Source of the DNA: Butyrivibrio sp.
GTDB lineage: Bacteria; Bacillota; Clostridia; Lachnospirales; Lachnospiraceae
Assembly: GCA_017470505.1 (NCBI GenBank)
Contig: JAFUYO010000042.1
Coordinates: 1 to 52,223, forward strand
Length of the DNA stretch: 52,223 nucleotides
Direction: 5' to 3'
Shown: positions 29,338 through 52,223 of the stretch, one piece after another
How the letters are laid out: each line of letters starts with the position of its first letter
Numbering within the stretch: position 1 is the stretch's first letter
Position numbers and translations under genes: made by a program
The notes under the pieces: generated by a model
Told to the model about the DNA's origin: nothing
What the model saw: the letters and a program-made list of their open reading frames with translations, nothing else
Databases searched by the model: none

Positions 29338-31295
29338 AAGACAGAAAAGAACCTTTTAATTTTCAGAAGTTTTACAGAAGAATAGGGCTTATCGTCTATG
29401 ACGTGATCAGTATCATCATGGCCAGCTATGTCGCCATTCTCATGAGATATGAGTTCAGGGTGGAGGCAATACCTGACCATTTCATGGCACCCGTCAATAC
29501 CTTTTTGCCCATTAACATAATCATAACCATAATTATTTTTTACCTGTTCAGGCTCTATGACAGCCTCTGGGCCTACGCCGGCGAAAAAGAGATGCAGAAC
29601 CTCGTGGTTGCCTGCGTGATCTCCGGCTTTATCAACGCGGTGGGGCTTCAGTTCTTTAAGTCGGACATTCAGCCTGTTCCGCAGAGCTACTACTTTTTGT
29701 ACACGTTCCTCCTCATAACGGCGATCTTTGTCAGCCGCTTCTCCTACAGGTTTTTCAGGACGCAGAAGCAGAGGTCGGGAAACAGGAACAACAACAAGGC
29801 GGTGATGATAATCGGCGCAGGCGAAGCTGCGAACATCATCATCAAGGAGATAATAACCAGCAACTACTCCACCATGTCGATCAAGTGCATCATAGACGAT
29901 GACACAAATAAGTGGGGCAGGTATATCCAGGGAATCCGCGTTGTCGGAGGGCGTGACAGGATAGTTGAGTGCGCGGACCTCTACGACATAGATGAGATCA
30001 TCGTGGCCATCCCCTCGGTGTCCAGGAAAGAGATGCGAAAGATCCTGGATATCTGCAAGAACACCAACTGCAAGCTCCGCTCCCTCCCCGGAATGTACCA
30101 GCTCGTAAACGGTGAAGTGAATGTATCGAGGCTGCGCGACGTGGAGGTCGAGGACCTTCTGGGAAGAGACCCCATATCTGTTGATATGGATTCCATCGCG
30201 GGCTATGTCCAGGGTAAGAGCGTCATGGTTACGGGAGGAGGCGGCTCGATCGGGTCAGAGCTGTGCAGGCAGATCGCGGGGCACAATCCAAAGCGCCTCA
30301 TAATCGTCGACATCTACGAGAACAACGCCTATGAGATACAGCAGGAGCTGAAGGTGAAGTACCCCGAGCTCGACCTTGTGGTGCTGATAGCTTCAGTCAG
30401 AAACACGCTCCGCATAAAGAGGATATTTGAAAAGTACAGGCCCGACATCGTCTACCACGCAGCAGCCCACAAGCACGTGCCGCTGATGGAGGACTCTCCG
30501 ACAGAGGCTATTAAGAACAACGTCTTTGGCACCTGGAAGACAGCACTTGCTGCTGCTGAGTGCGGGTGCAAAAAGTTTGTCATGATATCCACAGACAAGG
30601 CGGTCAATCCCACCAATATCATGGGTGCGAGCAAGAGGATCTGCGAGATGATAGTGCAGACCTTCAACAACCACTATGACACTGAGTTCGTGGCGGTGAG
30701 ATTCGGAAATGTGCTCGGCTCAAACGGCTCGGTAATACCTCTTTTCAAAAAGCAGATTGCTGCGGGAGGTCCCGTAACCGTAACTGACCCCGAGATTATC
30801 AGATACTTTATGACGATCTCAGAGGCGGTATCGCTTGTTTTGCAGGCAGGAGCCTTTGCAAAGGGCGGCGAGATCTTCGTACTCGATATGGGTGAGCCCG
30901 TCAAGATCCTCGACCTTGCGGAGAACCTCATAAAGCTCTCAGGCTACAAGGTAGGCGAAGATATCAGGATCGAGTTCACGGGACTAAGGCCCGGTGAGAA
31001 GCTCTACGAGGAGATGCTCATGGACGAGGAGGGGCTTCAGGACACCGCCAACAAGATGATCCACATAGGAAAGCCGATAGAGCTCGACGAGATGAAGTTC
31101 TTCTCTCAGCTTGAGAAGCTGAACACCGCAGCCAGACAGGAGTCCCCCGAGATAAGGGACCTTGTAAAGGAGATCGTGCAGACCTATCATCCCGACGTTC
31201 ACAAGTACACGATGACGAGGGAGAGAAAGGCAGCTCTCTTAAAGGCCACAGAGAAGATCAATGCAGACGCAATGGGAGGTAATCCATGGAACTGA
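29334..31295 (+). CDS. pglF: UDP-GlcNAc 4,6-dehydratase, membrane retaining type (PglF/WbpM/CapD-like)
   Basis: The 653-residue enzyme has four N-terminal membrane spans (to about 140), a first Rossmann-like region with IIGAGEAANIII (about 159-170) and a catalytic SDR domain with TGGGGSIGSELCRQI (300-314). Its catalytic segment reads ISTDKAVNPTNIMGASK: Met430 stands where short dehydratases have Tyr, with K434. This Ser-Met-Lys arrangement is known for the long PglF/WbpM group. The product is UDP-2-acetamido-2,6-dideoxy-4-ketoglucose, the substrate for the aminotransferase encoded next, whose start overlaps by 10 nt. Identification as a retaining dehydratase is firm; the exact pathway is inferred from the cassette. 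Confidence 0.92.
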   Translation: MKDRKEPFNFQKFYRRIGLIVYDVISIIMASYVAILMRYEFRVEAIPDHFMAPVNTFLPINIIITIIIFYLFRLYDSLWAYAGEKEMQNLVVACVISGFINAVGLQFFKSDIQPVPQSYYFLYTFLLITAIFVSRFSYRFFRTQKQRSGNRNNNKAVMIIGAGEAANIIIKEIITSNYSTMSIKCIIDDDTNKWGRYIQGIRVVGGRDRIVECADLYDIDEIIVAIPSVSRKEMRKILDICKNTNCKLRSLPGMYQLVNGEVNVSRLRDVEVEDLLGRDPISVDMDSIAGYVQGKSVMVTGGGGSIGSELCRQIAGHNPKRLIIVDIYENNAYEIQQELKVKYPELDLVVLIASVRNTLRIKRIFEKYRPDIVYHAAAHKHVPLMEDSPTEAIKNNVFGTWKTALAAAECGCKKFVMISTDKAVNPTNIMGASKRICEMIVQTFNNHYDTEFVAVRFGNVLGSNGSVIPLFKKQIAAGGPVTVTDPEIIRYFMTISEAVSLVLQAGAFAKGGEIFVLDMGEPVKILDLAENLIKLSGYKVGEDIRIEFTGLRPGEKLYEEMLMDEEGLQDTANKMIHIGKPIELDEMKFFSQLEKLNTAARQESPEIRDLVKEIVQTYHPDVHKYTMTRERKAALLKATEKINADAMGGNPWN

Positions 31296-32572
31296 AACCC
31301 TTTGAAAAGAAACTGTATCTCTCCTCACCAACAACCCACGGCGAGGAGCTAAAGTATATACAGGAGGCCTTTGACACCAACTGGCTGTCGACTGTAGGCG
31401 CCAATATCAACGAGGCTGAGAAACTGATCTGCGAAAAGATTGGCTGCAAAAATGCAGTGGGCTTATCAAGCGGAACTGCAGCCCTGCACCTCGCAATAAG
31501 GCTCGCCGCAGAGAAATTATACGGACAGCCCAAGGTAGGGCACGGCTCCCTCGAGGGAAGGAGAGTCTTCTGCTCCGACATGACCTTTGATGCTACGGTA
31601 AACCCCGTTGCCTATGAGGGCGGAGAGGCTGTCTTTATCGACACTGAGTACGACACCTGGAACATGGACCCTGTCGCCCTTGAAAAGGCCTTCGAGATGT
31701 ACCCCGATGTGAAAATGCTCGTAATCGCCCACCTCTACGGGACTCCGGGAAAGGTCGATGAGATCAGGAAGATCTGCGACAGAAACGGCGCCCTCATCGT
31801 AGAAGATGCGGCGGAGAGTCTCGGTGCGACCTATGATGGCAGGCAGACAGGCATATTTGGCGACGTGGGAGTCATCTCTTTTAACGGAAACAAGATAATA
31901 ACAGGCTCATCCGGCGGAATGTTGCTGACAGACTCAGACGAGGACGCGGACAAGATCAGGAAGTGGTCCACCCAGTCGAGGGAGGATGCGCCCTGGTACC
32001 AGCACGAGGAGCTTGGCTTTAACTACAGGATGAGCAACATCATCGCGGGGATGATACGTGGTCAGATACCACACCTTGATGAGCACATTGCGCAGAAAAG
32101 AGCTATTTACAACAGATACAGGGAGGGCTTTAAGGACCTTCCCGTCACGATGAACCCCTACGATGAAGTAAGGTCAGAGCCAAACTTCTGGCTCTCATGC
32201 ATGCTGATCGACAGTGACGCTATGTCAAGGCAGGTCAGGGGAGAGAGAGATGTTCTCTACGAAAAGACTCCGGGTAAGAGCTGCCCTACAGAGATCCTTG
32301 ATACGATCGCGAAGTATAACGCGGAGGGACGCCCCATCTGGAAGCCCATGCACATGCAGCCGATTTACAGAATGCACGCTTTTGTGACGCGTGACGGCTC
32401 AGGCCGGGCAAGGAGTAACGCCTACATCGATGAGGGAGCAGTATCCGATATTGGAATGGATATCTTTGACAGGGGGCTCTGCCTTCCTTCCGACAACAAG
32501 ATGACCCCCGATCAGCAGGATATGATAATAGAGATCGTGAAGAGGTGTTTTGTAGAGCATCCCATGATGTAG
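31286..32572 (+). CDS. pglE: Sugar-nucleotide aminotransferase (PglE/UDP-bacillosamine type)
   Basis: The 428-residue DegT/DnrJ/EryC1/StrS enzyme begins KKLYLSSPTTHGEELKYIQEAFDTNWLSTVG, as in PglE-type transaminases. SSGTAALHLAIRLA (61-74) binds the cofactor phosphate, VEDAAESLGATYDGRQTG (172-189) stacks on the ring and the PLP lysine is K203 in SFNGNKIITGSSGG. It should aminate C4 of the PglF product to UDP-4-amino-4,6-dideoxy-GlcNAc. Two inserts (about 80-95 and 270-330) make it longer than the usual 380-390 residues. It sits between pglF and pglC, the order expected for a bacillosamine cassette. Confidence 0.88.
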   Translation: MELKPFEKKLYLSSPTTHGEELKYIQEAFDTNWLSTVGANINEAEKLICEKIGCKNAVGLSSGTAALHLAIRLAAEKLYGQPKVGHGSLEGRRVFCSDMTFDATVNPVAYEGGEAVFIDTEYDTWNMDPVALEKAFEMYPDVKMLVIAHLYGTPGKVDEIRKICDRNGALIVEDAAESLGATYDGRQTGIFGDVGVISFNGNKIITGSSGGMLLTDSDEDADKIRKWSTQSREDAPWYQHEELGFNYRMSNIIAGMIRGQIPHLDEHIAQKRAIYNRYREGFKDLPVTMNPYDEVRSEPNFWLSCMLIDSDAMSRQVRGERDVLYEKTPGKSCPTEILDTIAKYNAEGRPIWKPMHMQPIYRMHAFVTRDGSGRARSNAYIDEGAVSDIGMDIFDRGLCLPSDNKMTPDQQDMIIEIVKRCFVEHPMM

Positions 32573-32594
32573 AACATCCGTGTAGAGGAGATTT

Positions 32595-33227
32595 ATGTAT
32601 AAGAATTATATCAAGCGTTTTCTGGACATAATAATTTCGGCACTGGTGCTGGTCCTCTTTAGCTGGCTCTACGTGATACTTGCTATCCTTGTGAGAATAA
32701 AGCTCGGGAGCCCCGTTCTCTTTAAGCAGCCGCGCCCCGGCAAGGACGAAAAGGTCTTTAACCTCTACAAGTTCCGCACCATGACGGATGCGCGCGACAA
32801 GGACGGGAACCTTCTTCCCGATGAGGACAGACTCCCTGAGTTTGGAAAGAGGCTCCGCGCGACGAGCCTTGACGAACTGCCGGAATTTCTTAATATCTTG
32901 AAGGGCGATATGAGCTTTGTGGGACCGCGCCCCCTCCTGGTAAAATATCTTCCTCTCTACAATGAGGAGCAGAGGCACCGCCACGATGTGAGGCCGGGAC
33001 TCACCGGCTGGGCTCAGGTAAACGGCAGGAACCTACTCTCGTGGGAGGACAGATTTGAGAAGGACGTGTATTATGTCAGACACGTCTCCTTCCTCTTTGA
33101 TTTAAAAATAGTGTTTATGACGGTGGCTGTCGTGTTCGGACACCGCGGCATCAGCAGCGGGTCAGATGCGACGATGGAGGCCTTTACGGGAACGAAACCA
33201 AAGGACACGGATCAGGGAAATTCCTGA
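32595..33227 (+). CDS. pglC: Monotopic phosphoglycosyl transferase (PglC-like)
   Basis: The 210-residue enzyme has a single re-entrant N-terminal helix (about 10-35) and no extra membrane domain, the PglC architecture. It carries SPVLFKQPRPGKDEKVF, YKFRTM, the catalytic pair D93-E94 in SLDELPEF, MSFVGPRPLL and RPGLTGWAQVNGRN. In Campylobacter PglC moves diacetylbacillosamine-1-phosphate from UDP to undecaprenyl phosphate, and the genes upstream make exactly that kind of donor. It therefore starts a second lipid-linked glycan, independent of the polytopic enzyme at 3782. A strong AGAGGAG site precedes the ATG. Confidence 0.92.
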   Translation: MYKNYIKRFLDIIISALVLVLFSWLYVILAILVRIKLGSPVLFKQPRPGKDEKVFNLYKFRTMTDARDKDGNLLPDEDRLPEFGKRLRATSLDELPEFLNILKGDMSFVGPRPLLVKYLPLYNEEQRHRHDVRPGLTGWAQVNGRNLLSWEDRFEKDVYYVRHVSFLFDLKIVFMTVAVVFGHRGISSGSDATMEAFTGTKPKDTDQGNS

Positions 33228-33253: not shown

Positions 33254-34249
33254 ATGAACATATTATTCTGTAGCGTCGGAAGGCGCTGCGCACTATTAAA
33301 GGATTTCAGGAACACACTTGGCGACAGGGTGCATATAGTGGTCACGGACAACAGCCTCTATGCGCCCGCCCTCACCTTTGCGGACAAGAGCTACAGGGTT
33401 CCGCTCATAACCGATGAGAACTATATACCGACTATTCTGGAAATCTGCAGAAGGGAAAAGATAGACGCGGTGACAACCCTGATCGATCCCGAAATCGCCA
33501 TACTTGCTGAGCACAGAAGTGAGTTTGAAGAGCTCGGGGTGACTGTCCTTGCGCCCTACCTTGAGACGGCGAGCCTTTGCTTTGACAAGTACGAGATGTC
33601 AAAGTTCCTGACTGAAAAAGGGATAAACACGGTGAGAACCTACGGTTCTTTTGATGACTTCAAGGCCGGCTTCGATAAGGGAGAGATCACCTTCCCTGTA
33701 TTTGTAAAGCCCAGGTGTGGAAGCGGCAGCGTCGGAGCAAGGAAGGTCGAGAACATGGAGCTGCTTAAGGACCTCACGGACAGGGATGAGACTCTGATTA
33801 TACAGGAGCTCATGACGGGGGGCGACATGGACGCCGATATCTACGTGGATACAATAAGCGGAGAGCCTGTAGCGATCTTTTCAAAGAAAAAGATATCTAC
33901 CACGATTGGCGGCGCCAACAAGACAATCTCCTTTAAGGACCCCGCCCTCTTTGATTTTGTAAAGGATGCGCTGAAGGCATTTAAGTTCTGCGGGCCTCTG
34001 GACATGGATCTCTTTTACCAGGATGGGAAGTACTTTTTATCCGAGGTGAACCCCAGATTTGGCGGAGCTTACCTTCACGCCTACGGGGCGGGCGTAGATT
34101 TTGTGAAGCTCATCTACAACAACGTGGCAGAGAAAAAGGTGAACGATCCGGTAATCGGCGAGTACGAGGAAAATGTCGTGATGATGATGTACGACAGCGT
34201 CGTCATAGAAAAGCTGAAAAACCTTGAAGAGCGGATGGAAGAAATATAA
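33254..34249 (+). CDS. ATP-grasp family ligase
   Basis: The 331-residue soluble protein has an N-terminal pre-ATP-grasp domain (NILFCSVGRRCALLKDFRN), a central ATP-binding region (VFVKPRCGSGSVGARKV, about 152-168; IIQELMTGGDMDADIYVD, about 182-199) and a metal-binding tail (LDMDLFYQDGKYFLSEVNPRFGGAYLHAY, about 249-277). ATP-grasp enzymes join a carboxylate to an amine or thiol through an acylphosphate. It stands between pglC and the PglA-like gene, the place where PglD might be expected. One hypothesis is that it acylates the 4-amino sugar with an amino acid or other carboxylate. The carboxylate and acceptor cannot be read from the sequence. Confidence 0.82.
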   Translation: MNILFCSVGRRCALLKDFRNTLGDRVHIVVTDNSLYAPALTFADKSYRVPLITDENYIPTILEICRREKIDAVTTLIDPEIAILAEHRSEFEELGVTVLAPYLETASLCFDKYEMSKFLTEKGINTVRTYGSFDDFKAGFDKGEITFPVFVKPRCGSGSVGARKVENMELLKDLTDRDETLIIQELMTGGDMDADIYVDTISGEPVAIFSKKKISTTIGGANKTISFKDPALFDFVKDALKAFKFCGPLDMDLFYQDGKYFLSEVNPRFGGAYLHAYGAGVDFVKLIYNNVAEKKVNDPVIGEYEENVVMMMYDSVVIEKLKNLEERMEEI

Positions 34250-39990: not shown

Positions 39991-41189
39991 TGGCTGACAA
40001 AAAGAAAAATCTCCTTCTGATGGTTCCCATGCTCCATCAGGGCGGATTTGAGAGAGTCTGCATCAAGACCGCGAGGCTGATGCAGGAATTCTACAACGTA
40101 CATATTCTCATCTTCAGCTCCAAAGACATCAACTTCGATGTGACGGGGCTTGATGTGATAGACATAGACATTCCTGCCAAAAAGGGGATGTTCAACAAGA
40201 TAATCAATGTATTTAAGCGTGTCATCAGGACCCGTAGCATAAAGAAGGAGCTCCATGCCGACATCTCCTACAGCTTCGGCAGCAGCGCCAACTATGTGAA
40301 CGTGCTCTCTAGAGGGAAAGAGAGGGTATTAACGGGCCTTCGCTGTCAGACCGATATGGAGAGCAAGAGGCAGGTGAAGCTCTTTTGCAAGGGCTCTACG
40401 CAGGTTTTGTCCTGCTCCAAGGAGATCGTGAGGCAACTTCAAAAGGACTTTAATTATGGCAGGAGCACCTACATATACAACCCGCTGGACATAGCGGACG
40501 TCGAGAAAAAGGCAGGAGAGACTATTACCGACTATCCATTTAATGGGAATGGCCTTGTTACCTTCTCATGCATGGCAAGAAACGACTACATAAAGGGAAT
40601 CTGGCACCTTGTCAAAGCTTTTTATCTGGCGCAGAAAGAAAGCCCCAATATCAGGCTCATCATCATGGGAGCCGGAAACTGGGACAGGTACAAAAAGATG
40701 GCAAAGTCCCTTGGCATCAGCGACAAGGTCGCTTTCATGGGGCTTAAAAAGAATCCCTTCCCCTATGTCGCTTCCTCCGACATCTACGTCTGCAGCTCCA
40801 ACCATGAGGGCTTTCCAAACGCGGTCCTGGAGGCCATGGCTCTCAAAAAGCCCGTTATCTCCGCTGACTGTAAGACCGGTCCAAGAGAGATACTGCTCTC
40901 GGAATCGGAGTACGAGGATCTGATAGAGAGAATCCCTGACGGAGCGAGCACGACAGAGACCATAAGAGGCGAGTACGGGATCCTGGTTCCCGATATGGAT
41001 GAGAGAGAGGACTATGATCCCGGGCACAATACAGACGGCGAGCGGATGCTGTCAAGAGAGATGGTCCGCCTTGCAGCTGATAAGGCGGAGAGAGATAAGT
41101 ATTCCGGGAAGGCCTTCGAGAGGGCGCTCTTCTACACGCCTGAGAAATACAAGAAAAGTATCCACGAGATTTTCAAGAGGTATGAGTGA
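39990..41189 (+). CDS. Family 4 glycosyltransferase (PglH/PglJ-like)
   Basis: The 399-residue GT-B enzyme begins NLLLMVPMLHQGGFERVCIKTARLM. It has SCSKEIVRQL, TYIYNPLDI, SCMARNDYIKGIWHLVKAF and the E-x7-E segment SSNHEGFPNAVLEAMALKKPVISADCKTGPREIL. The last motif, with C-x-x-GPREI, is typical of PglH/PglJ enzymes that add alpha-linked HexNAc to a lipid-linked chain. It resembles the proteins at 42127 and 46674. An insert with a duplicated acidic stretch (about 310-345) is unlike the paralogues. The ATG overlaps the previous stop; a TTG one codon earlier is the alternative. Confidence 0.85.
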   Translation: MADKKKNLLLMVPMLHQGGFERVCIKTARLMQEFYNVHILIFSSKDINFDVTGLDVIDIDIPAKKGMFNKIINVFKRVIRTRSIKKELHADISYSFGSSANYVNVLSRGKERVLTGLRCQTDMESKRQVKLFCKGSTQVLSCSKEIVRQLQKDFNYGRSTYIYNPLDIADVEKKAGETITDYPFNGNGLVTFSCMARNDYIKGIWHLVKAFYLAQKESPNIRLIIMGAGNWDRYKKMAKSLGISDKVAFMGLKKNPFPYVASSDIYVCSSNHEGFPNAVLEAMALKKPVISADCKTGPREILLSESEYEDLIERIPDGASTTETIRGEYGILVPDMDEREDYDPGHNTDGERMLSREMVRLAADKAERDKYSGKAFERALFYTPEKYKKSIHEIFKRYE

Positions 41190-42124
41190 TGCATTACAAG
41201 GTAGTTGTTTTTGGAGTTAAGGACACATCGGAAAACATCATCGAGTTTATAGAGAACGAGATCTGCAGGGTGGACCTCGTCATTACAATAGCCGGCAAGG
41301 TACTTGAGCACAATCAGGTTTCGGGCTTTAAGGGGCTCTCTTTCCTCACGGATAAGTTCGGGATCCCCGTATATGAGGCTGACAGCTATTTTCTGAACGA
41401 TGAAAAGACAAAAAAGTTCATTTCAGAGAACACCTTTGACATAGGCATCGTTATGGGCTGGCAGAGGCTGATCCCCAGGGAAGTCCTTGACTCTTTTAAA
41501 GAGGGAATCTTCGGCTTCCACGGAAACTGCGGGTACCTGCCCTTCGGAAGGGGAAGGTCGCCCTTAAACTGGTCGATCATTTTGGGAGATACCAGGTTTA
41601 ACTTAAACCTCTTTAAGTACGACGAGCACGCCGACTCCCCCAATGTCTTTGCGACCGAGATGTTCCAGATAAATGCGCATGACGACATCAGATCGGCCCA
41701 GTACAAGAACATGATCTGCTCCAAGAACCTCATCAAAAAGCTCCTCACAACCTATATGGAAAATGGGAGCGTCACCATACATACAGATTCAAAAGACTTC
41801 GATTCATGGTACAATAAACGTACAGCAGCTGACGGACGGATTTCATTCAGGGACAGGACGAGGGATATCTACAACCTGATCCGCGGTGTTGCAGCCCCCT
41901 TCCCCGGCGCCTTCTGCTATGCTGATACAGAGGATGATGAGCACTTAGTCAGAATATGGCAGGCTCATCCCTTCGATGAGATGATAGATTTTTCGGCCTA
42001 CGCTCCCGGCGAGATCGTCGATATCTTTGACGGGAAGCTTGTTGTGAGGACTGTCGACGGATCACTTCTGATCGATAAGTACGAGAGCGAATATCCTCTT
42101 AAAAAGAAAGTGATATTACTGTAA
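41189..42124 (+). CDS. Formyltransferase-like protein (possible sugar N-formyltransferase)
   Basis: The 311-residue protein has the formyltransferase fold: YKVVVFGVKDTSENII at the start, IGIVMGWQRLIPREVLDSF, the catalytic region FGFHGNCGYLPFGRGRSPLNWSIILGD (His about 111) and the acid in DEHADSPNVF (about 149). A C-terminal domain (from about 210) resembles that of methionyl-tRNA formyltransferase. The asparagine usually two residues before the catalytic His is replaced by Gly, as I recall for some other sugar formyltransferase-like proteins. Given the 4-amino sugars made here, N-formylation of such a sugar using formyl-tetrahydrofolate is likely. The start overlaps the preceding stop. Confidence 0.7.
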   Translation: MHYKVVVFGVKDTSENIIEFIENEICRVDLVITIAGKVLEHNQVSGFKGLSFLTDKFGIPVYEADSYFLNDEKTKKFISENTFDIGIVMGWQRLIPREVLDSFKEGIFGFHGNCGYLPFGRGRSPLNWSIILGDTRFNLNLFKYDEHADSPNVFATEMFQINAHDDIRSAQYKNMICSKNLIKKLLTTYMENGSVTIHTDSKDFDSWYNKRTAADGRISFRDRTRDIYNLIRGVAAPFPGAFCYADTEDDEHLVRIWQAHPFDEMIDFSAYAPGEIVDIFDGKLVVRTVDGSLLIDKYESEYPLKKKVILL

Positions 42125-44081: not shown

Positions 44082-46028
44082 ATGTGCGGAATCTGCGGAT
44101 ACGTTTCCAAAAAAAGAATAACTGAAGATGACCTGCGCATCATGAACGATACGATGTACCACAGGGGACCTGATGACAGCGGAGTCGAGATTTTTCAGGG
44201 AAGGGACGGCTATTTTGTGGGGCTCGCCCAGAGGCGCCTTGCAATCCTTGACCTCTCGCCCTCAGGGCACCAGCCAATGCACTCGCAGGACGGGAGACTC
44301 TCCGCCATCTTTAACGGAGAGATATACAACTTCCTTGAGCTGAAGGACGAGCTGACTGACTATCCGTATAAGTCGACCTGCGACACGGAGGTGATAATCG
44401 CAGCCTACCTTAAGTGGGGTATCGACATGGTGGATCACATTCACGGCATGTTTGCGATAGCGCTCTATGACAGGGAAGAGGACGCCGTCTACCTCATAAG
44501 AGACAGGATTGGCAAAAAGCCGCTCTTTTATTGGCTCGATGGGGATGGAATCGTCTTTGCGTCAGAGCTTAAGCCCATTATGAAGTGCCCGGGCTTTAAG
44601 GGCGACATACGGCGCCAGCTCCTTCCGAGGTACCTGTATCAGCAGTACATCAGTGCGCCCGAGACGATCTTTACCGATGTGTACAAGCTTGAAGCAGGCT
44701 CTGTCCTCAGCTTTAAGGGCGGCGAGATAAAGAAGTGGAAGTACTGGGACGTAAAGGATGTGTACAGGGAAAAACTTAAGGACCCTGTGACAGACTATAA
44801 CGAAGCCAAGGAGGGGCTGAAGGACAGGCTCAAAAAGTCGGTCTTGAGGAGAATGATCGCGGATGTTCCGCTGGGAACTTTTTTGTCGGGCGGCTACGAT
44901 TCATCCCTTGTAACAGCGATAGCCCAGGAGCTGTCGGATGAGCCTGTCAGGACCTTCTGCATCGGCTTCAATGTGCCGAGCTACAACGAGGCCGAGTACG
45001 CCAAAGAGATAGCAACTTACCTTGGCTGCAACCACACCGAGATGTACATCTCGGAAAAAGAGATGTTTGACCTCGTCTCGAGCATCCCTCAGTACTACGA
45101 CGAGCCTTTTGCGGACAACTCGGAGATACCGTCCATGCTGGTAAGTAAGCTCGCCAAAAAGGACGTCACCGTTGCGCTTTCAGGCGACGGGGGCGATGAG
45201 TTTTTCTGCGGTTACAATGTATATGACAACGTATATCAGGCTCAGCTTTTGGAGTTTCCCGGGGCGGTGGTAAACGCGGTCGGCAAGATTCCCCTTGGCT
45301 CAGGAAGGCTTATCGACAGGATGCCCTTCAGGGTAAAGGTCGTCGCCGGAAACAGAGACCCGGAGACCAAGACGCAGCTGGTGTCTGAGGGCTATATCAG
45401 GGCATCACACGCATTTCTGCACGGAAAAGAGACGCTGGACGTGCCTGTAAGTGCTCAGGACTATCTGGGAACAGACTTTAATCTTGCAGCGAATGAGGCG
45501 CCTGTCCTCTACCCTACAGAGACCACCTATGGCGTGGGTAACTTCCAGGCAAGGCGTATGCTCCTTGATATGGACACGTACCTTCCCGAGGACATACTGG
45601 TCAAGATGGACAGGGCATCCATGAAGTACTCACTCGAGAACAGATGCCCTATAATGGATACGGAGGTCATGGAGTACTCCTTCAGGATTCCGCACAAATT
45701 CAAGTATTACAAGGGCGACAAGAAGCACATATTAAAGGATATCGCCTGCGATTATATCCCGAGGGAGCTCCTCGAGAGGCCAAAGACCGGCTTTGGAGTT
45801 CCGATGGACAGCTGGCTCAGGGGCCCGTTAAAGGAGGCGCTCCTCGACTACAGCAGTACGGCGTTTTTAAAGAAGCAGGGAATATTTGATGCGGACTACG
45901 TTTCGCGCTTTATAAACGACTACATCGTAAAGGGAGACGCAGGACCCTCAACAGGGGCGAATTTCAGCAAGATAACGTGGTCGTTCTTTATCTTCCAGCA
46001 GTGGTACAACTACTACCACATGCTGTAA
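44082..46028 (+). CDS. asnB: Asparagine-synthase-like amidotransferase (glutamine-hydrolysing)
   Basis: The 648-residue enzyme starts MCGICGYVS, giving an N-terminal nucleophile Cys after Met removal, with RGPDDSG (28-34) and FNGEIYN in the glutaminase domain. The synthetase domain has the ATP pyrophosphate loop SGGYDSS (269-275), FCIGF and LSGDGGDEFFCGYN. Homologues in glycan clusters, such as WbpS and WbtH, are thought to amidate HexNAc-uronic acids. The nearby dehydrogenase/epimerase pair could supply such a substrate. True asparagine synthesis cannot be excluded from sequence alone. A second copy is at 49983. An acyl carrier protein gene follows after 16 nt. Confidence 0.88.
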   Translation: MCGICGYVSKKRITEDDLRIMNDTMYHRGPDDSGVEIFQGRDGYFVGLAQRRLAILDLSPSGHQPMHSQDGRLSAIFNGEIYNFLELKDELTDYPYKSTCDTEVIIAAYLKWGIDMVDHIHGMFAIALYDREEDAVYLIRDRIGKKPLFYWLDGDGIVFASELKPIMKCPGFKGDIRRQLLPRYLYQQYISAPETIFTDVYKLEAGSVLSFKGGEIKKWKYWDVKDVYREKLKDPVTDYNEAKEGLKDRLKKSVLRRMIADVPLGTFLSGGYDSSLVTAIAQELSDEPVRTFCIGFNVPSYNEAEYAKEIATYLGCNHTEMYISEKEMFDLVSSIPQYYDEPFADNSEIPSMLVSKLAKKDVTVALSGDGGDEFFCGYNVYDNVYQAQLLEFPGAVVNAVGKIPLGSGRLIDRMPFRVKVVAGNRDPETKTQLVSEGYIRASHAFLHGKETLDVPVSAQDYLGTDFNLAANEAPVLYPTETTYGVGNFQARRMLLDMDTYLPEDILVKMDRASMKYSLENRCPIMDTEVMEYSFRIPHKFKYYKGDKKHILKDIACDYIPRELLERPKTGFGVPMDSWLRGPLKEALLDYSSTAFLKKQGIFDADYVSRFINDYIVKGDAGPSTGANFSKITWSFFIFQQWYNYYHML

Positions 46029-46044: not shown

Positions 46045-46287
46045 ATGACGAGAGAAGAAGTATTTGAGAAACTAAATGCAGTTTTTAGAGATGTGTTTGA
46101 GGACGAGAGTATTACCGTCAATGATGATACTACGGCGGATGATATTGAGGACTGGGATTCGCTGGAGCATATTAACCTGGTGAATGCTGTCGAGCAGGAG
46201 TTTGGGATCAAGTTCAACATGGGGCAGATCGTGTCCATGAAGAATGTCGGCGAGATGGTGAATATCATCATTGAGAAGCTCGGGTAA
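46045..46287 (+). CDS. Acyl carrier protein
   Basis: The 80-residue acidic protein has the carrier-protein helix pattern and the phosphopantetheine attachment site Ser39 in DIEDWDSLEHINLV. It carries an acyl group as a thioester. Located away from fatty-acid genes and beside VOC, FkbH-like and MBOAT genes, it is most likely a dedicated carrier for an unusual acyl group destined for the polysaccharide. AAAGGAGAG precedes the ATG. It is comparable in role to DltC of D-alanylation, but the loader here would be the FkbH-like enzyme at 48167. Confidence 0.92.
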   Translation: MTREEVFEKLNAVFRDVFEDESITVNDDTTADDIEDWDSLEHINLVNAVEQEFGIKFNMGQIVSMKNVGEMVNIIIEKLG

Positions 46288-46297
46288 GGGTGAGGAT

Positions 46298-46687
46298 ATG
46301 AAGATACATCACGTCGGATACCTGGCCAAAAACATAGAGAAGACCAGAAAGAAGTTTCTCGAGCTCGGGTACGGGGTTGAGAGGGAAGTTATGTACGATG
46401 AGTACAGGCAGATCGACATTGAGTTTTTGAAAAACGGGGACTACAGGGTTGAGCTGATACAGCCAAAGAGTGAAGACTCTCCCATGTTCCCTCTCTTAAA
46501 GCGCTTTAAGAACTCGCCCTATCACTTCTGCTACGAGGTAGCGGACCTTGAGCAATCGGTTGAAGAGCTGTCGCAGATGGGCTATACCGTAATTCAGGAG
46601 ATAGCGCCGGCGCCTGCAATTGACGGCAGAAAAGTAGTTTTTTTGAACAATATCAGTATGGGGATCATCGAACTTGTCGAAGCATGA
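46298..46687 (+). CDS. VOC-superfamily protein (methylmalonyl-CoA epimerase-like)
   Basis: The 129-residue protein begins MKIHHVGYLAKNIEKTRKKFLELGY and has two beta-alpha-beta-beta-beta units. Four candidate metal ligands are present: His in IHHVG, Glu in RVELIQP (about 57), His in PYHFCYE (about 80) and Glu in GIIELVE near the end. This is the pattern of methylmalonyl-CoA epimerase and glyoxalase I. Next to an acyl carrier protein, it might epimerise or rearrange the carried acyl group. ATG 46298 is chosen over an upstream in-frame codon that overlaps the ACP gene, because AAGGGTGAGG precedes it. The substrate is unknown. Confidence 0.78.
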   Translation: MKIHHVGYLAKNIEKTRKKFLELGYGVEREVMYDEYRQIDIEFLKNGDYRVELIQPKSEDSPMFPLLKRFKNSPYHFCYEVADLEQSVEELSQMGYTVIQEIAPAPAIDGRKVVFLNNISMGIIELVEA

Positions 46688-47894
46688 GCAGCATACACAA
46701 AAGCATATAGCAATGTACATAGGTTCACTTCAAAAGGGCGGAGCCGAGAGGGTCATGTCGGGCCTCTCGGACTTCTTTTTTGAAGAGGGATACAGAGTAA
46801 CCCTTGTTACGACCTATCTTGCGCCCAACGAGTACGAGGTGAGGCACGCAGCTTGGAAGGCGGTCCCTGCGGGGGCTCCGAGGGCAGAGCTCGTGGCTGA
46901 TCTCGACGAGAATCCCGTCTGGGTTGACCCTGAGGGCGGCGAAGAGGGAGGCATAAAGAGGGTATTCTCGGCTCTTTTAAAAAGTGAACAGAAAGGGCGG
47001 GTCACTAACCTGCGCCTTCGCCACCAAAAGCTAACGGACATCTGGAAAGAGCTGAAGCCCGATGTCGTCCTGAGCTTTATGGGAAAGAACAACATCATGG
47101 CGATCTCCACCGCGACAAGGGAGGGGATAAAGGTAGTTGCATCCGTCAGGGCTGACCCCGATATGGAGTACGGCTCAATTTCGCTAAAGGCCGGTATGCT
47201 CTCAACCTTCGGCAAGGCAGCAGGCATCGCCGTGCAGTCGAGCGGAGCCATGAATAAGTTCCCCGGCTTTATCAGGAAGAAGTGTACGATACTTCCAAAT
47301 CCCATGGACATATCTTTTGTGAGAAAGAGATATGCCGGAGAGAGGGAGAAGAGCATAGTCATGGTGGCGAGGCTGAACGCCAACAAAAACCAGGCAATGG
47401 TCATGGAGGCCTTTGCAGAGGCGACGAAGGATAAATTCAGTGACTACCGCCTCGTCTTTTACGGCGACGGCCCCGACAGGCTATCGCTTCAGCGAAAGGC
47501 AGCATCACTTGGGATCGGCGAGAGAGTAGATTTTAAGGGAAACGTAAAGCACGTCGCTGAGCACATAGAAAAGGCGAGGATATTCGTGCTCGCATCCAAC
47601 CACGAGGGCATGCCCAACTCCCTCATAGAGGCGATGAGCCTGGGCCTTGCCTGCATCTCCACCGACTGCCCCTGCGGCGGCCCAAGAGACCTTATAAAGG
47701 ACGGCTACAACGGCCTCCTCGTCCCCGTCGCCGACAAAGAAGCCATGACCACCGCCCTAATAAGTCTCATGGAAAACGACAACCTTGCAGAAAACCTCGG
47801 CAAAGCAGCCACCAATATCCAGAAGAAATTCGCACCCGACGTTGCCAATCTCGCCTGGAAACAGTATATTGATTCTATACTGAGATATGATTAA
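46674..47894 (+). CDS. Family 4 glycosyltransferase (PglH/PglJ-like)
   Basis: The GT-B enzyme has about 406 residues. IAMYIGSLQKGGAERVMSGLSDFFFEEGYRVTLVT opens the acceptor domain. VVASVRADPDMEYGS, TILPNPMDISFV, VMVARLNANKNQAMVMEAF and the E-x7-E segment ASNHEGMPNSLIEAMSLGLACISTDCPCGGPRDLI mark the donor side. The start is uncertain: TTG 46674 keeps the whole first beta strand, while ATG 46713 would trim it; neither has a good ribosome site. A segment of about 45 residues (about 50-100, acidic then basic) is longer than in the 42127 paralogue. A 272-nt structured gap follows. Confidence 0.85.
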   Translation: MSKHEQHTQKHIAMYIGSLQKGGAERVMSGLSDFFFEEGYRVTLVTTYLAPNEYEVRHAAWKAVPAGAPRAELVADLDENPVWVDPEGGEEGGIKRVFSALLKSEQKGRVTNLRLRHQKLTDIWKELKPDVVLSFMGKNNIMAISTATREGIKVVASVRADPDMEYGSISLKAGMLSTFGKAAGIAVQSSGAMNKFPGFIRKKCTILPNPMDISFVRKRYAGEREKSIVMVARLNANKNQAMVMEAFAEATKDKFSDYRLVFYGDGPDRLSLQRKAASLGIGERVDFKGNVKHVAEHIEKARIFVLASNHEGMPNSLIEAMSLGLACISTDCPCGGPRDLIKDGYNGLLVPVADKEAMTTALISLMENDNLAENLGKAATNIQKKFAPDVANLAWKQYIDSILRYD

Positions 47895-47905
47895 GTCAGA
47901 ATCCA

Positions 47906-48130
47906 GGGCTGAGCAAATGTATATCGGTCACGGTATGCATGAGAAAAACGTCGGCACTTTGAGCAGAGCACTTGGCGATGTATTTTAGAGCCTAGTGCGA
48001 GCCATGGGGGACCACTTGACGAGGTATTTTCGAGTCTAGTGGGGCATCCCAAGGTGGAGCTCCTTAGTACCGCTACGTTTTTCTTTGTGCGAGAGCGCCA
48101 TACCGTGACAGATATACATTTGCTCAGCCC
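47906..48130 (+). ncRNA. Candidate structured RNA: long closing stem with two matching hairpins
   Basis: The 272-nt gap (47895-48166) holds no gene. A 32-nt arm (47906-47937, starting GGGCTGAGCAAATGTATATC) pairs with 48099-48130 with one mismatch. Inside are two hairpins with the same layout: GCACTTGGC/GCCTAGTGC (47968-47998) and CCACTTGAC/GTCTAGTGG (48012-48042), each closing on a 13-nt loop containing GTATTTT. Differences in the stems are compensatory (G-C versus C-G, G-C versus A-T), as are the inner loop bases (T-A versus G-C). Another stem (AAGG/CCTT around 48051-48065) may exist. I recognise no known RNA family. A transposable repeat is the alternative. Strand is assumed to follow the operon. 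Confidence 0.5.
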
Positions 48131-48166
48131 GGACCTACCTAAACAGCAGCACAGCAAGAGGACAGT

Positions 48167-49969
48167 ATGAAAGACCTTGAATATCCCTTTGACGGCAACT
48201 ACATAATGAAGAAGAAGCGGAGCCTCAAAAAGGCTCTTTTAGCTGACGGCTCAGACCGTATCCACAAAAAGATTGCCGTCCTCGGCGGCTCCACAACCCA
48301 CGATATCATAGCCGTCTTAGAGCTCTTTTTGCTGAACTTTGGCATCGAGCCCGAGTTCTACGAGTCGGAGTACGGGCAGTACTGGCAGGATGCCATGTTC
48401 CCGACAGACGAGCTCTTATCGTTTTCGCCGGATATCATCTTCATCCACACATCCAACAGGAACATTCTGGATTACCCTGAGATCGGCGATACTGCACCAG
48501 AAGTAAATGCAAAGCTTGAAAAGGTCTTTTCGAATTTTCAGACCATGTGGAAGAAGCTATCAGAGACCTTCAACTGCCCGATTATACAGAACAATTTTGA
48601 GATGCCTTTTTTCAGGCTCATGGGAAACCGCGACGGAGTCGACATTCACGGAAGACTTCGCTTTATTCACAGACTGAATGAGCGCTTTGCGGACCACGCA
48701 TCAAACTGCGAGACCGCGGGTGAGAGCTTTTTTATAAATGACATCAATTACCTCTCTGCCTGTTACGGGCTCGATGAGTGGTCAGATCCGCAGGCGTGGC
48801 ATATGTACAAGTACGCCCTCTGCATCCCTGCGATCCCCTGCCTTAGCTACAACGTCGCAAACATCATAAAGTCCATCTATGGCAAGAACAAGAAGGGACT
48901 GGTGCTCGACCTCGACAACACCCTCTGGGGCGGAGTTGTGGGAGACGATGGAGTAGACGGGATAGAGATAGGACAGGAGACGAGCCTTGGGCAGGTCTAC
49001 TCTGAGTTTCAGAACTATGTTAAGATGCAGAAGGACATCGGCGTAATCCTCGCAGTTGACTCCAAAAATGAGCACGAAAATGCGATCGCGGGGCTAAATC
49101 ACCCCGACGGAGCTCTTCGCCCCGATGACTTCGTCTCGATAAAGGCCAACTGGGAGCCAAAGAGCGAGAACTTCAAGTCGATCGCAAAAGACCTCAGCCT
49201 CCTTCCCGAGTCTCTCGTATTCGTTGACGATAACCCCGCTGAGAGGGAGATCGTGACAGCGCAGCTTCCCGGAGTATCAGCGCCTGCACTCGATGCGCCC
49301 GAGCACTACATCAGGTATATCGACCACGGCGGATATTTTGAGGTGACATCTCTTTCCGAGGACGACAAAAAGCGCAACGAGATGTACATGGCAAACAGAA
49401 AGAGGACGGAGCTCCTTGAGAGCTTTGCCGACTACGGCGAGTACCTGACGTCCCTCGAGATGGAGGCGCAGATAGGGCCGTTTGATAAGATGTATTTCCC
49501 GAGGATAGCGCAGCTGACCAATAAGAGCAACCAGTTTAACTTAACCACCAGGCGCTACTCCCAGGATGATATAGAGAAGGCGGCAGAGGATGAGGGAAAC
49601 ATCACTCTCTGCGGGCGATTAAAGGATAAATTCGGTGACAACGGGATAGTTTCCCTCGCAATCGGAAATATCAGGGGAGAGGTGCGCGACGAGCTCCACA
49701 TTGTTCTGTGGCTTATGAGCTGCAGGGTCTTAAAGCGCGACATGGAATTTGCCATGATGGATGAGCTTGTCGCTGCGGCGCTTGAAAACGGCATCAGCTC
49801 CATTTTCGGCTACTACTATCCGACCGCCAAGAATAAGATGGTTAAGGATTTTTATCTGCTTCAGGGGTTTGAGAAGATATCAGAGGATGCGGACGGAAAT
49901 CTCACCTTCAGGCTCGACATCAGCGGCGGGTACATCAGGAAAAACAAGTATATAAAGATTATCAGATGA
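48167..49969 (+). CDS. HAD-IIIC FkbH-like protein
   Basis: The 600-residue protein has three parts: an SGNH-like N-terminal region (IAVLGGSTTHDI at about 36-47), the FkbH-type HAD domain with motif I LVLDLDNTLWGGVVGDDG (245-262), AVDSKNEHEN (296-305) and FVDDNPAERE (352-361), and a GNAT-like C-terminus (QLTNKSNQFNLTTRR onward). Characterised FkbH proteins take D-1,3-bisphosphoglycerate, remove phosphate and load glyceryl onto an acyl carrier protein. An ACP gene lies 1.9 kb upstream and an MBOAT acyltransferase downstream, so glyceryl (or a similar hydroxyacyl) transfer to the glycan is a reasonable hypothesis. Family assignment is firm; the product is inference. Confidence 0.9.
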   Translation: MKDLEYPFDGNYIMKKKRSLKKALLADGSDRIHKKIAVLGGSTTHDIIAVLELFLLNFGIEPEFYESEYGQYWQDAMFPTDELLSFSPDIIFIHTSNRNILDYPEIGDTAPEVNAKLEKVFSNFQTMWKKLSETFNCPIIQNNFEMPFFRLMGNRDGVDIHGRLRFIHRLNERFADHASNCETAGESFFINDINYLSACYGLDEWSDPQAWHMYKYALCIPAIPCLSYNVANIIKSIYGKNKKGLVLDLDNTLWGGVVGDDGVDGIEIGQETSLGQVYSEFQNYVKMQKDIGVILAVDSKNEHENAIAGLNHPDGALRPDDFVSIKANWEPKSENFKSIAKDLSLLPESLVFVDDNPAEREIVTAQLPGVSAPALDAPEHYIRYIDHGGYFEVTSLSEDDKKRNEMYMANRKRTELLESFADYGEYLTSLEMEAQIGPFDKMYFPRIAQLTNKSNQFNLTTRRYSQDDIEKAAEDEGNITLCGRLKDKFGDNGIVSLAIGNIRGEVRDELHIVLWLMSCRVLKRDMEFAMMDELVAAALENGISSIFGYYYPTAKNKMVKDFYLLQGFEKISEDADGNLTFRLDISGGYIRKNKYIKIIR

Positions 49970-49982
49970 TCATAGGTATTTT

Positions 49983-51920
49983 ATGTGCGGAATTTGCGGA
50001 CTTATCGGATATAAGAAAGATGCGGCCCCTGTCATCCACAGGATGAACGAGAGGATGATACACCGCGGCCCCGACGATGAGGGGATCTATATAAGTGATG
50101 ACCACAAAGTGGCGCTTGGACACAGGCGCCTTGCAATTGTCGAGCTCTCCAAAAAGGGAGCCCAGCCAATGACGTCTCTTAGCGGCAGGTTTACCCTGGT
50201 CTACAACGGTGAGATTTACAACGCAGGCCTTCTCAGGGAAAAGCTCCTCTCTGTGGCGTCACAATCCGGCACTGTTTTCGGGACATGCGGCGCAGGAATT
50301 ACTTTTCGCGGAAGCTCCGACACCGAGGTTTTACTTGAGTCCATCGAGAGATTCGGAGTAAAAAAGACGCTGGAAACAGCGAAGGGAATGTTCGGCTTTG
50401 CAATCTACGACAGGGAGAATAACACTGTGACCCTTGCCCGGGACAGGGTCGGCGAAAAGCCCCTCTACTACGGGTACGTGGGCGGCGCCTTCGCATTTGC
50501 CTCGGACCTTGGGAGCATCAGGGTCATCGACGGATTTGACAACGCCATAAATACAGATGTTCTGGATATATATTTCAGGGACGGCTACATTCCCGCTCCC
50601 TACTCTATTTACAGGGATATTTACAAGCTCGATGCAGGGAAGATATTGACCATAAATGTCTCTGACCTCACAACTCGTGAAGAGACCTGCTTCTCGATGG
50701 CAGAGATTGCCAAAAAGGGGAGCGAGAGTCCCTTTGACGGAAGCCCCATAGAGGCGGCAGATGAACTTGAGAGGCTCTTAAAAGAGTCGGTAAAGGGACA
50801 GATGATCGCCGATGTTCCGCTTGGGGCATTCCTCTCTGCAGGCATCGACTCATCAACCATCGTATCCATCATGCAGTCCGTATCCGATAGGAAGGTCAGG
50901 ACCTTCACTATAGGCATGGAGGATGAGAGGTACAACGAGGCGAAGATAGCGGGAGAGATCGCATCGCACCTTGGCACCGATCACACGGAGCTCTACATAA
51001 CAGAAGCTGACGCAAAGGCCGTCATTCCGGGCATCGCCCGCATGTTTGCGGAGCCCTTTGCGGACTCATCGCAGATACCGACTTTCCTTGTCAGCAAAAT
51101 GACGAGGCAGTATGTGACGGTATCGCTCTCGGGTGATGGAGGCGATGAGCTCTTTTGCGGCTACAACTCCTACGAATCTGTGGGACGGATCTGGGGTAAG
51201 CTTCATAATCTCCCCTATCCTGTCAGGAAGGCTACGAGTTCAGCCCTCCTTGCCGCAATGTCAGGCAGGATAAAGAGCGGCGCATTTAATCAGACTGAGT
51301 ACGCAAAGGCGGTATACCTCGTAGCAAAGTCCCCCTCCGATGTCCACAGGATGGAGCACCTCTCTGACCCTCTGATATCAAAGATAAGCCTTACGCACGG
51401 CCACATAAGCGAAAAGTGCATGGACCACAGCGGAGTATACCTTGGCGATCCGTTAAAGGATGTTCGGCTCATGGATATGCTCGTGTATCACCCCGACGAC
51501 ATTCTGGTAAAGGTCGACAGAACTGCCATGGCGGTATCGCTCGAGAGCAGGGTGCCAATGCTTGATAAGGACATACTTGAGTTTGCTTTTTCTCTCCCGA
51601 CACCCTACTTAAGAGATGAAAAGACTTCAAAAAAAGTCTTAAGAGATGTATTATACCGTTATGTGCCCAGGGAGATGATGGACAGACCCAAAAAAGGCTT
51701 CTCCATCCCAATAGCGAAGTGGCTCCTTGAGCCTGATTTAAGATCCTGGGCAGAAGATCTTTTGGATGAAAAAAAGGTAAGTCAATCGGGTATACTCGAT
51801 TCTGACGTTGTACATAAGATATGGACGGACTTTACCGAAAAGGGGATATACAGGGTGCAGATATGGTATATCCTAATGTTCCTTGAGTGGTATGAAGATG
51901 AGTACAGACATTCCTTATAA
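49983..51920 (+). CDS. asnB: Asparagine-synthase-like amidotransferase (second copy)
   Basis: The 645-residue enzyme begins MCGICGLIGYKK (nucleophile Cys2), with RGPDDEG (28-34) and YNGEIYN in the glutaminase half. The synthetase half has SAGIDSS (285-291), where Ala replaces the second position of the usual SGGxDSS loop, then FTIGMEDERYNEA and LSGDGGDELFCGYN. An insert at about 92-108 (QSGTVFGTCGAGITF) is absent from the copy at 44082. Both copies may amidate different uronic acids, or this one may amidate an ACP-bound or sugar carboxylate. It starts 13 nt after the FkbH-like gene and is followed by the MBOAT gene. Confidence 0.88.
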   Translation: MCGICGLIGYKKDAAPVIHRMNERMIHRGPDDEGIYISDDHKVALGHRRLAIVELSKKGAQPMTSLSGRFTLVYNGEIYNAGLLREKLLSVASQSGTVFGTCGAGITFRGSSDTEVLLESIERFGVKKTLETAKGMFGFAIYDRENNTVTLARDRVGEKPLYYGYVGGAFAFASDLGSIRVIDGFDNAINTDVLDIYFRDGYIPAPYSIYRDIYKLDAGKILTINVSDLTTREETCFSMAEIAKKGSESPFDGSPIEAADELERLLKESVKGQMIADVPLGAFLSAGIDSSTIVSIMQSVSDRKVRTFTIGMEDERYNEAKIAGEIASHLGTDHTELYITEADAKAVIPGIARMFAEPFADSSQIPTFLVSKMTRQYVTVSLSGDGGDELFCGYNSYESVGRIWGKLHNLPYPVRKATSSALLAAMSGRIKSGAFNQTEYAKAVYLVAKSPSDVHRMEHLSDPLISKISLTHGHISEKCMDHSGVYLGDPLKDVRLMDMLVYHPDDILVKVDRTAMAVSLESRVPMLDKDILEFAFSLPTPYLRDEKTSKKVLRDVLYRYVPREMMDRPKKGFSIPIAKWLLEPDLRSWAEDLLDEKKVSQSGILDSDVVHKIWTDFTEKGIYRVQIWYILMFLEWYEDEYRHSL

Positions 51921-51999
51921 AGCGTTCAGGTAGTGAGTGCTGACAGGTGATGCGAAAAAATGTACTTGTAGGTCTGCCCGGACCCGACAGGTGTTTTAG

Positions 52000-52223
52000 A
52001 TGAGCGTTACATCGTTCTATTTTCTGTGCTTTTTTGCACTTGTTTTAATCATATATTACCTCGTTCCTGTATTTACAAAGGGGCGCGGACAGTGGGTGGT
52101 GCTACTTATCTCCGGCATCGCCTTTTATGTGATGTCACAAAATCCTGCGCTGATACTCTATCCCCTCTCTTCATCACTCATAACCTGGCTCCTTCTAAAG
52201 CTCCTTGAAAAGGTGCCGGATGA
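52000..52223 (+). CDS. MBOAT-family membrane acyltransferase (partial, runs off window)
   Basis: The first 74 residues are present, starting MSVTSFYFLCFFALVLIIYY. Two long hydrophobic helices and the segment WVVLLISGIAFYVMSQNPALILYPLSSSL match the N-terminus of MBOAT proteins such as DltB and AlgI. These enzymes pass an acyl group from a cytoplasmic carrier through the membrane to an extracellular polymer. The start is ATG 52000 with an AGGTG site at 51989-51993. The catalytic His is beyond the window. Together with the ACP and FkbH-like genes it suggests an acyl-transfer system. The 79-nt gap upstream contains only a weak inverted repeat (GGTC/GACC). Confidence 0.75.
   Translation, partial: MSVTSFYFLCFFALVLIIYYLVPVFTKGRGQWVVLLISGIAFYVMSQNPALILYPLSSSLITWLLLKLLEKVPD

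Follow-up and report, generated by a model that had tools for sequence, protein, structure and literature searches.

We examined a stretch of 52,223 nucleotides from Butyrivibrio sp. (contig JAFUYO010000042.1 of assembly GCA_017470505.1; hereafter the window), at the end of which lie genes for an acyl carrier protein (ACP), a VOC protein, an FkbH-type loader and the beginning of an MBOAT protein. The original prediction, made from the window alone, had read them as a Dlt-like acyl-transfer module built on an FkbH loader. All four parts it named, namely an ACP with Ser39, a VOC protein with four ligand residues, FkbH and the MBOAT start, were confirmed; its gene list left out a GT4 glycosyltransferase gene and an AsnB-like gene that interrupt the series (Table 1). 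Below, same-genus genomes, contigs and fetched loci are labelled G, C and L, respectively.

The window is the whole of contig C21, which stops inside the MBOAT frame, and because it ends there the stub matches no model. Contig C46 of the same genome opens with an exact copy (zero mismatch) of the window's last 141 bases and completes the frame with 482 codons that start at base 2 of C46; this part matches PF03062 with 54.8 bits (cut-off 27). The joined gene has, by arithmetic, 510 codons and is followed by an SGNH-like gene. Extension of the contig, proposed along with the original prediction, has in this way completed the MBOAT, which is neither broken nor of another family.

Table 1. Features of the window and of contig C46: parts of the module, then operon neighbours
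Feature	Position	Strand	Evidence or remark
ACP, dedicated acyl carrier protein	46045..46287	+	PF00550; Ser39 in DSLEHI
VOC protein (glyoxalase I / methylmalonyl-CoA-epimerase fold)	46298..46687	+	PF13669; H5, E52, H76, E125
FkbH-type loader	48167..49969	+	TIGR01686, PF21211; HAD-IIIC domain
MBOAT N-terminus	52000..52223	+	continues in frame on C46, ends FIYKDF
SGNH-like gene	C46:1454-2557		after MBOAT
GT4 glycosyltransferase, operon neighbour outside the minimal module	46674..47894	+	between VOC and FkbH; PF00534 131.4 bits
AsnB-like glutamine-dependent amidotransferase, operon neighbour	49983..51920	+	PF00733 324.5 bits
Second AsnB-like amidotransferase	44082..46028	+	directly upstream of ACP; PF00733 306.5 bits
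Sugar formyltransferase-like gene, same operon	41186..42124	+	PF02911 55 bits, PF00551 27.5 bits
Probable glycan initiation block: sugar dehydratase-type, DegT aminotransferase, initiating sugar-phosphate transferase	29334..33227	+	PF02719, PF01041, PF02397

The ACP reaches 27.5 bits with PF00550 (cut-off 20.8) and does not reach the cut-off in any of the nine ACP models listed for it; no DltC model is among these nine families, and whether the library includes one was left unchecked. Its Ser39 is kept in all 102 aligned ACPs, the window's among them. The loader scores 267.9 bits with TIGR01686, against a cut-off of 146.65, and its N-terminal domain 32.7 bits with PF21211 (cut-off 27). It is composed of an N-terminal extension, a HAD-IIIC domain (DLDNTLWGG, SKN, DDN) and a C-terminal part with Cys519 (SCR). 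Residues D248, D250, K300, D354, D355 and C519, to which we assign presumed catalytic roles, are invariant in an alignment of 10 sequences. A second FkbH-domain class, 26-29% identical and with open frames of about 1,270-1,300 codons, was noticed in eight same-genus genomes (for example G007:C1:122769, G050:C10:170475 and G051:C30:28273). According to the available excerpts, from which all papers are cited here, FkbH proteins are described, mostly by prediction, as loading carrier proteins with glyceryl or glycerate (PMC7489565, PMC10143770), and experimental work on glyceryl-S-ACP goes back to Sun et al. 2008, as cited in PMC4552970.

The VOC protein, for which we take the ATG at 46298 as start (the open reading frame tool gives TTG at 46271), matches PF13669 with 77.2 bits (cut-off 27). 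Its closest solved relative is PDB 3hdp, named Glyoxalase-I, with 66 of 126 residues identical, and H5, E52, H76 and E125, which we take to be the metal ligands, are identical in all 32 rows compared (30 locus VOCs, the window and 3hdp). Two equivalog assignments were rejected: methylmalonyl-CoA epimerase (TIGR03081, 54.2 bits vs cut-off 114.95) and TIGR00068 (23.2 bits vs cut-off 120). Glyoxalase I yields a 2-hydroxyacyl thioester, the class to which glyceryl-S-ACP belongs as well. Given this shared class and the likeness to glyoxalase I, action of the VOC protein at C2 would fit, with epimerisation, as originally supposed, unproven.

In the MBOAT, His273 and His330 are kept in all 67 aligned sequences. 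The protein of the window genome ends in FIYKDF, fitting the FxYxxF shuttle, and a Tyr stands fourth from the end in all 60 frames of 485-539 codons and in 99% of the 67 aligned. The same fused C-terminal shuttle motif has been shown acetylated in PatA of the PatA/PatB pair (PMC12148441). In the SGNH-like protein, S55, D283 and H290 are invariant in 15 aligned sequences; a PDB search with this alignment found nothing meaningful, the best hit (E 0.045) being a designed protein. As for a possible DltD-like partner, which the original prediction proposed to look for, an SGNH-like gene follows the MBOAT on C46; its product does not match DltD PF04914, which is matched by one of the 15 SGNH-like relatives (E 0.033). 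The same loader is also found with a second pair, consisting of a second MBOAT group and a DHHW/AlgX-like protein; the one DHHW protein scanned belongs to PF14286 and narrowly passes the cut-off of ALGX as well. One SGNH-like match (G035:C22:167117-168223) has two in-frame TAG codons and is possibly decayed.

These genes recur together in other Butyrivibrio genomes. FkbH relatives of at least 59% identity are present in 31 of the 61 same-genus genomes (the window's own included). Besides the window, 35 FkbH matches of at least 34% identity and one 70-residue fragment were found, and 30 of the 35 loci were fetched (the Butyrivibrio set). ACP lies near FkbH at all 30 of them, MBOAT within 8 kb likewise at all 30, and an SGNH-like gene at 28. 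MBOAT density in the 61 genomes is 2.24 per Mb (473 matches in about 211 Mb), therefore about 0.04 are expected per 16 kb, and the presence of MBOAT beside FkbH is more than chance.

The association is also evident from the side of the acyltransferase. In 38 same-genus genomes there are 23 MBOAT matches scoring over 330 bits, and each of them has an associated FkbH gene: 22 share a contig with it, and the window's own is linked to it by the contig overlap (tables compared by reading). Below this score, one more listed MBOAT (G005:C3, 285 bits) lies near FkbH. The converse is incomplete: for FkbH of G030, G008:C69 and G005:C3 the accompanying MBOAT is weaker or of a different kind, and the FkbH gene of G017 is cut by the end of a short contig. 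Of 18 SGNH matches in one piece that exceed 330 bits, 17 adjoin such an MBOAT, and the remaining one starts at the edge of a contig, in a genome that is 66% complete. As a control, we took the loci of 20 top-listed Pfam MBOATs of relatives (of the 473) together with three other MBOATs of the window's own genome. Neither ACP nor FkbH, VOC, MaoC or SDR was found at any of these 23 loci, in flanks of about 7-10 kb (less than 1 kb on one side of own-genome L045), and four positive loci showed theirs. The second MBOAT group gives the best score for every one of these controls, therefore not every MBOAT type was sampled.

Beyond the genus, a scan of genome_contigs gave at least 594 FkbH relatives, the best 80 of which were kept; these are mostly titled Lachnospiraceae, Oscillospiraceae and other clostridia and come, by their titles, mostly from gut and rumen assemblies. 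ACP lies within 5 kb in 71 of these loci and MBOAT within 8 kb in 59. Together with the Butyrivibrio set they make 110 loci (109 distinct, since L114 of Butyrivibrio sp. XPD2002 is the same as L036), with ACP near FkbH in 101 and MBOAT in 89. Uninterrupted same-strand runs of FkbH, ACP and MBOAT number 47 (7/30 Butyrivibrio, 40/80 genome_contigs), and 36 of the 110 loci have such a run with an SGNH or DHHW gene (7/30 and 29/80); the arrangement MBOAT-DHHW-FkbH-ACP is seen in 13 runs. Evidently, FkbH, ACP and MBOAT recur widely together, as the original prediction needed them to.

The module also stands alone. In the clearest case, L114, it is found among housekeeping genes (SpoU methylase, a PAP2 gene and class I tRNA synthetase). 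Other stand-alone runs are those of L143 (ABC transporter and recombinase genes), L129 (a MatE gene) and L139, the last lying beside a Na/H exchanger, with a GT2/GtrA gene two places off on the other strand. In L078, L081, L087 and L097, FkbH, accompanied by ACP in all but one of these loci, lies upstream of apparent phosphofructokinase, dnaX and recR genes, as named by judgement from sequence, and no MBOAT is present in the fetched flanks.

Comparison of the genes accompanying the loader revealed that the tailoring enzymes are exchangeable. Across 111 loci, the window included, VOC is near FkbH in 31, MaoC in 25 and both in none (Fisher p ~1e-4, computed without regard to kinship); in the genome_contigs loci, VOC occurs in 11 and MaoC in 19 (within 9 kb). 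On a quick FkbH tree the two were exchanged at least nine times. Of the 25 MaoC loci, 17 also have SDR nearby. The relatives at the shortest tree path from the window illustrate the exchange, L049 carrying VOC and L050 MaoC with SDR. In L050 the latter two lie between ACP and GT4, the place of VOC in the window, and MaoC/SDR occupy the VOC place in L052, L053, L056 and L057 as well. Key residues are preserved here too, MaoC D47 and H52 in 25/25 and SDR Y156 and K160 in 17/17. Transketolase-like genes, perhaps another acyl source, were observed near FkbH in L068, L083, L092, L097, L098, L105, L106, L117, L137, L138 and L148; the one of L068 that was scanned is PF00456. They were counted in 10 of the 80 genome_contigs loci, 8 of these with MaoC.

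Single genes are sometimes turned. FkbH alone is reversed in strand inside an otherwise intact operon in L054, L055 and L059, and VOC is opposite in strand to FkbH in 9 of the 11 VOC-bearing genome_contigs loci (L069, L072, L073, L074, L076, L077, L091, L099, L108). Inverted pairs were examined for all three FkbH-turned and five of the nine VOC-turned loci, up to the five longest per locus. The pairs on either side of the turned genes are short and imperfect, 18-23 bases with 74-89% matched (L054, L059, L069, L074, L091), and in L072 none surrounds the turned gene among the pairs listed. The turned genes were treated as rearrangements, an invertible switch being considered less likely.

Taken together, it is likely that we deal with a transmembrane hydroxyacylation module, in which an FkbH-loaded ACP feeds an MBOAT/SGNH pair and a glyceryl-type acyl group is delivered to an external glycan. 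Since the ACP adjoins an MBOAT with its own shuttle Tyr and an SGNH-like partner, the passage of such a group across the membrane to a glycan would be the simplest model; the identity of the acyl group, the role of VOC and the acceptor are what we infer in it. By family chemistry, FkbH would take glyceryl from 1,3-bisphosphoglycerate, strip the phosphate and load the dedicated ACP. The VOC protein might then tailor the ACP-bound 2-hydroxyacyl thioester, plausibly at C2, a task that in sister loci could fall to MaoC with or without SDR. Judging from the conserved residues, MBOAT would move the group from ACP to the Tyr of its own C-terminal FIYKDF, and the SGNH-like partner would accept it as a serine ester and esterify the extracellular glycan. 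MaoC and SDR together could produce lactyl by taking off the 3-hydroxyl, followed by reduction.

More tentatively, at somewhat under even confidence, this could be a widespread surface acylation driven by a glycolytic acyl phosphate rather than by an ATP ligase or acyl-CoA. Exchangeable cassettes would set the displayed hydroxy acid: VOC would give the other glyceryl enantiomer, MaoC with SDR lactyl, and the lack of any cassette glyceryl.

Several observations weigh against the module proposed here. Other genes lie between FkbH and MBOAT in most Butyrivibrio loci, all but the 7 of 30 with uninterrupted runs, and the two are on opposite strands in four of them (L054, L055, L059, L066). No MBOAT lies within 8 kb in 21 of the 80 genome_contigs loci; where at least 5 kb are available on both sides (n=47), MBOAT is present in 38 and absent in 9. 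Neither VOC nor MaoC accompanies FkbH in 55 of the 111 loci. The FkbH loci devoid of a nearby MBOAT, the opposite strands and the many loci with no tailoring gene are left unexplained by the model. Among the MBOATs of this group, 21 of 28 from Butyrivibrio and 34 of 43 from genome_contigs have the strict FxYxxF motif; the misses are truncated frames or show SIYDDF, FIYARI, FLYARY or SLYAQF instead. Nor does the motif prove an ACP donor, because acetyl-CoA-using MBOATs also have it. For the SGNH-like protein of the window genome itself there is no match to any Pfam family; in the SGNH-like alignment, 5 of the 15 members match GDSL PF13472, with E values of up to 0.5 (2.6e-5 for the best).

The same ACP-to-MBOAT route could also operate with a different load, FkbH transferring some other acyl phosphate or hydroxyacyl group instead of glyceryl, which we regard as unlikely. 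The loader was placed by sequence only, and the tailoring genes vary (VOC, MaoC, SDR, split transketolase), therefore the delivered groups probably differ between genomes. A load other than glyceryl is opposed by the VOC protein, similar to glyoxalase I, the product of which is also a 2-hydroxyacyl thioester, and by the loader itself, well above the TIGR01686 cut-off and with HAD motifs and Cys519 intact; the excerpts of PMC7489565, PMC10143770 and PMC4552970 describe FkbH as (mostly predicted) glyceryl or glycerate loaders.

Alternatively, the operon may hold two separate decorations, the FkbH-ACP acyl group being put on a nucleotide sugar by a cytoplasmic acyltransferase and the MBOAT/SGNH pair O-acetylating from acetyl-CoA. 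A cytoplasmic ACP route has been proposed for the Flavobacterium psychrophilum O-antigen, with the ACP WfpD and the PglD-like transferase WfpG (PMC6519341), non-Dlt MBOAT/SGNH pairs are described as acyl-CoA users (PMC12148441), and a DegT aminotransferase and a formyltransferase do lie in the window operon. However, a scan of 18 window proteins, which did not extend to the first 29 kb and two glycosyltransferases, showed no PglD-like transferase. This MBOAT group accompanies FkbH in all 23 cases, ACP is absent from all 23 other MBOAT loci, and runs of FkbH, ACP and MBOAT, some with SGNH, exist outside glycan clusters, all of which makes two separate decorations quite improbable. That the ACP bears a fatty or polyketide acyl chain is highly improbable: ACP, MaoC and SDR are also parts of fatty-acid and polyketide synthesis, but this ACP reaches the cut-off of none of the listed ACP models and the stand-alone runs consist of loader, ACP, MBOAT and SGNH only (ketosynthases were not searched for).

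As for the surroundings of the proposed hydroxyacylation module in the window, sugar dehydratase, aminotransferase, initiating transferase, glycosyltransferase and formyltransferase genes lie upstream on the same strand, therefore the operon probably builds a surface glycan. An ATP-grasp protein with a PylC-like N-terminal domain is encoded at 33254-34249, upstream of the module and on the same strand. Between GT4 and FkbH, at 47906-48130, there is a stretch of 225 bases whose inverted ends, 32 bases long, are 97% complementary. The element has 14 matches in its own genome (three being the element itself, 11 elsewhere) and matches in 12 of the 21 genomes searched; the inverted repeat was rejected as part of the module, belonging to a dispersed element.

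If the model is true, many clostridia have a second carrier-fed branch of such acylation, in which the acyl donor comes from glycolysis and the chemistry is exchangeable. The model predicts glycerate or lactate esters on surface glycans and gives a starting point for the study of other glycans that bear glyceryl. Native gellan is one of these; it has a known L-glyceryl ester, and the transferase is named only as an activity in the excerpt available (PMC9737242). The original prediction knew of no described pathway with these parts, and no description of the FkbH-ACP-MBOAT combination was found in the open-licence literature among the matches listed (subscription papers were outside the search). 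FkbH, MBOAT and ACP do appear together in one paper, on aeruginosins, where the excerpt gives them separate roles.

Separate elements of the module have parallels in known systems. The glyceryl-S-ACP systems of tetronate and methoxymalonyl polyketides likewise pair FkbH with a stand-alone ACP (PMC7489565); there glyceryl enters a polyketide, whereas in the present module a membrane acyltransferase goes with the pair. The F. psychrophilum O-antigen locus also has its own ACP, but N-acylation of a UDP-sugar with a fatty-acid-type group is proposed to take place there in the cytoplasm, and the available part of PMC6519341 mentions neither FkbH nor MBOAT. Similarly, cj1302 of Campylobacter jejuni is named as an FkbH-domain gene in a flagellar glycan paper, with no MBOAT mentioned in the excerpt (PMC7099621).

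The closest comparisons are with Dlt and PatA/PatB. With Dlt (DltA, DltC, DltB, DltX, DltD) the module, as proposed, would share a carrier-protein thioester donor, an MBOAT, a tyrosine shuttle and a probable SGNH-type partner in series. It differs in that an FkbH loader stands here in place of the DltA ligase, the ACP has optional tailoring enzymes and the shuttle Tyr is at the MBOAT's own C-terminus. The MBOAT is rejected as DltB (TIGR04091, 135.7 bits vs equivalog cut-off 375), and no DltA above cut-off was found in this genome, which is 84% complete (293.8 bits for the best match, the cut-off being 559.85). The coupling of an FkbH loader and ACP to an MBOAT route, as originally predicted, is well supported, while membership in Dlt fails on DltA, DltB and DltD: the module works like Dlt but is not Dlt. 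With PatA/PatB and related MBOAT/SGNH O-acetyltransferases of alginate, cellulose and secondary wall polymers it has in common the fused C-terminal shuttle motif and, probably, the SGNH-type partner. Those systems are described in the excerpt as using acyl-CoA with no carrier protein (PMC12148441), in contrast to the dedicated ACP and loader found here, and the module is best classed with the MBOAT/SGNH acylation systems, as a carrier-fed variant.

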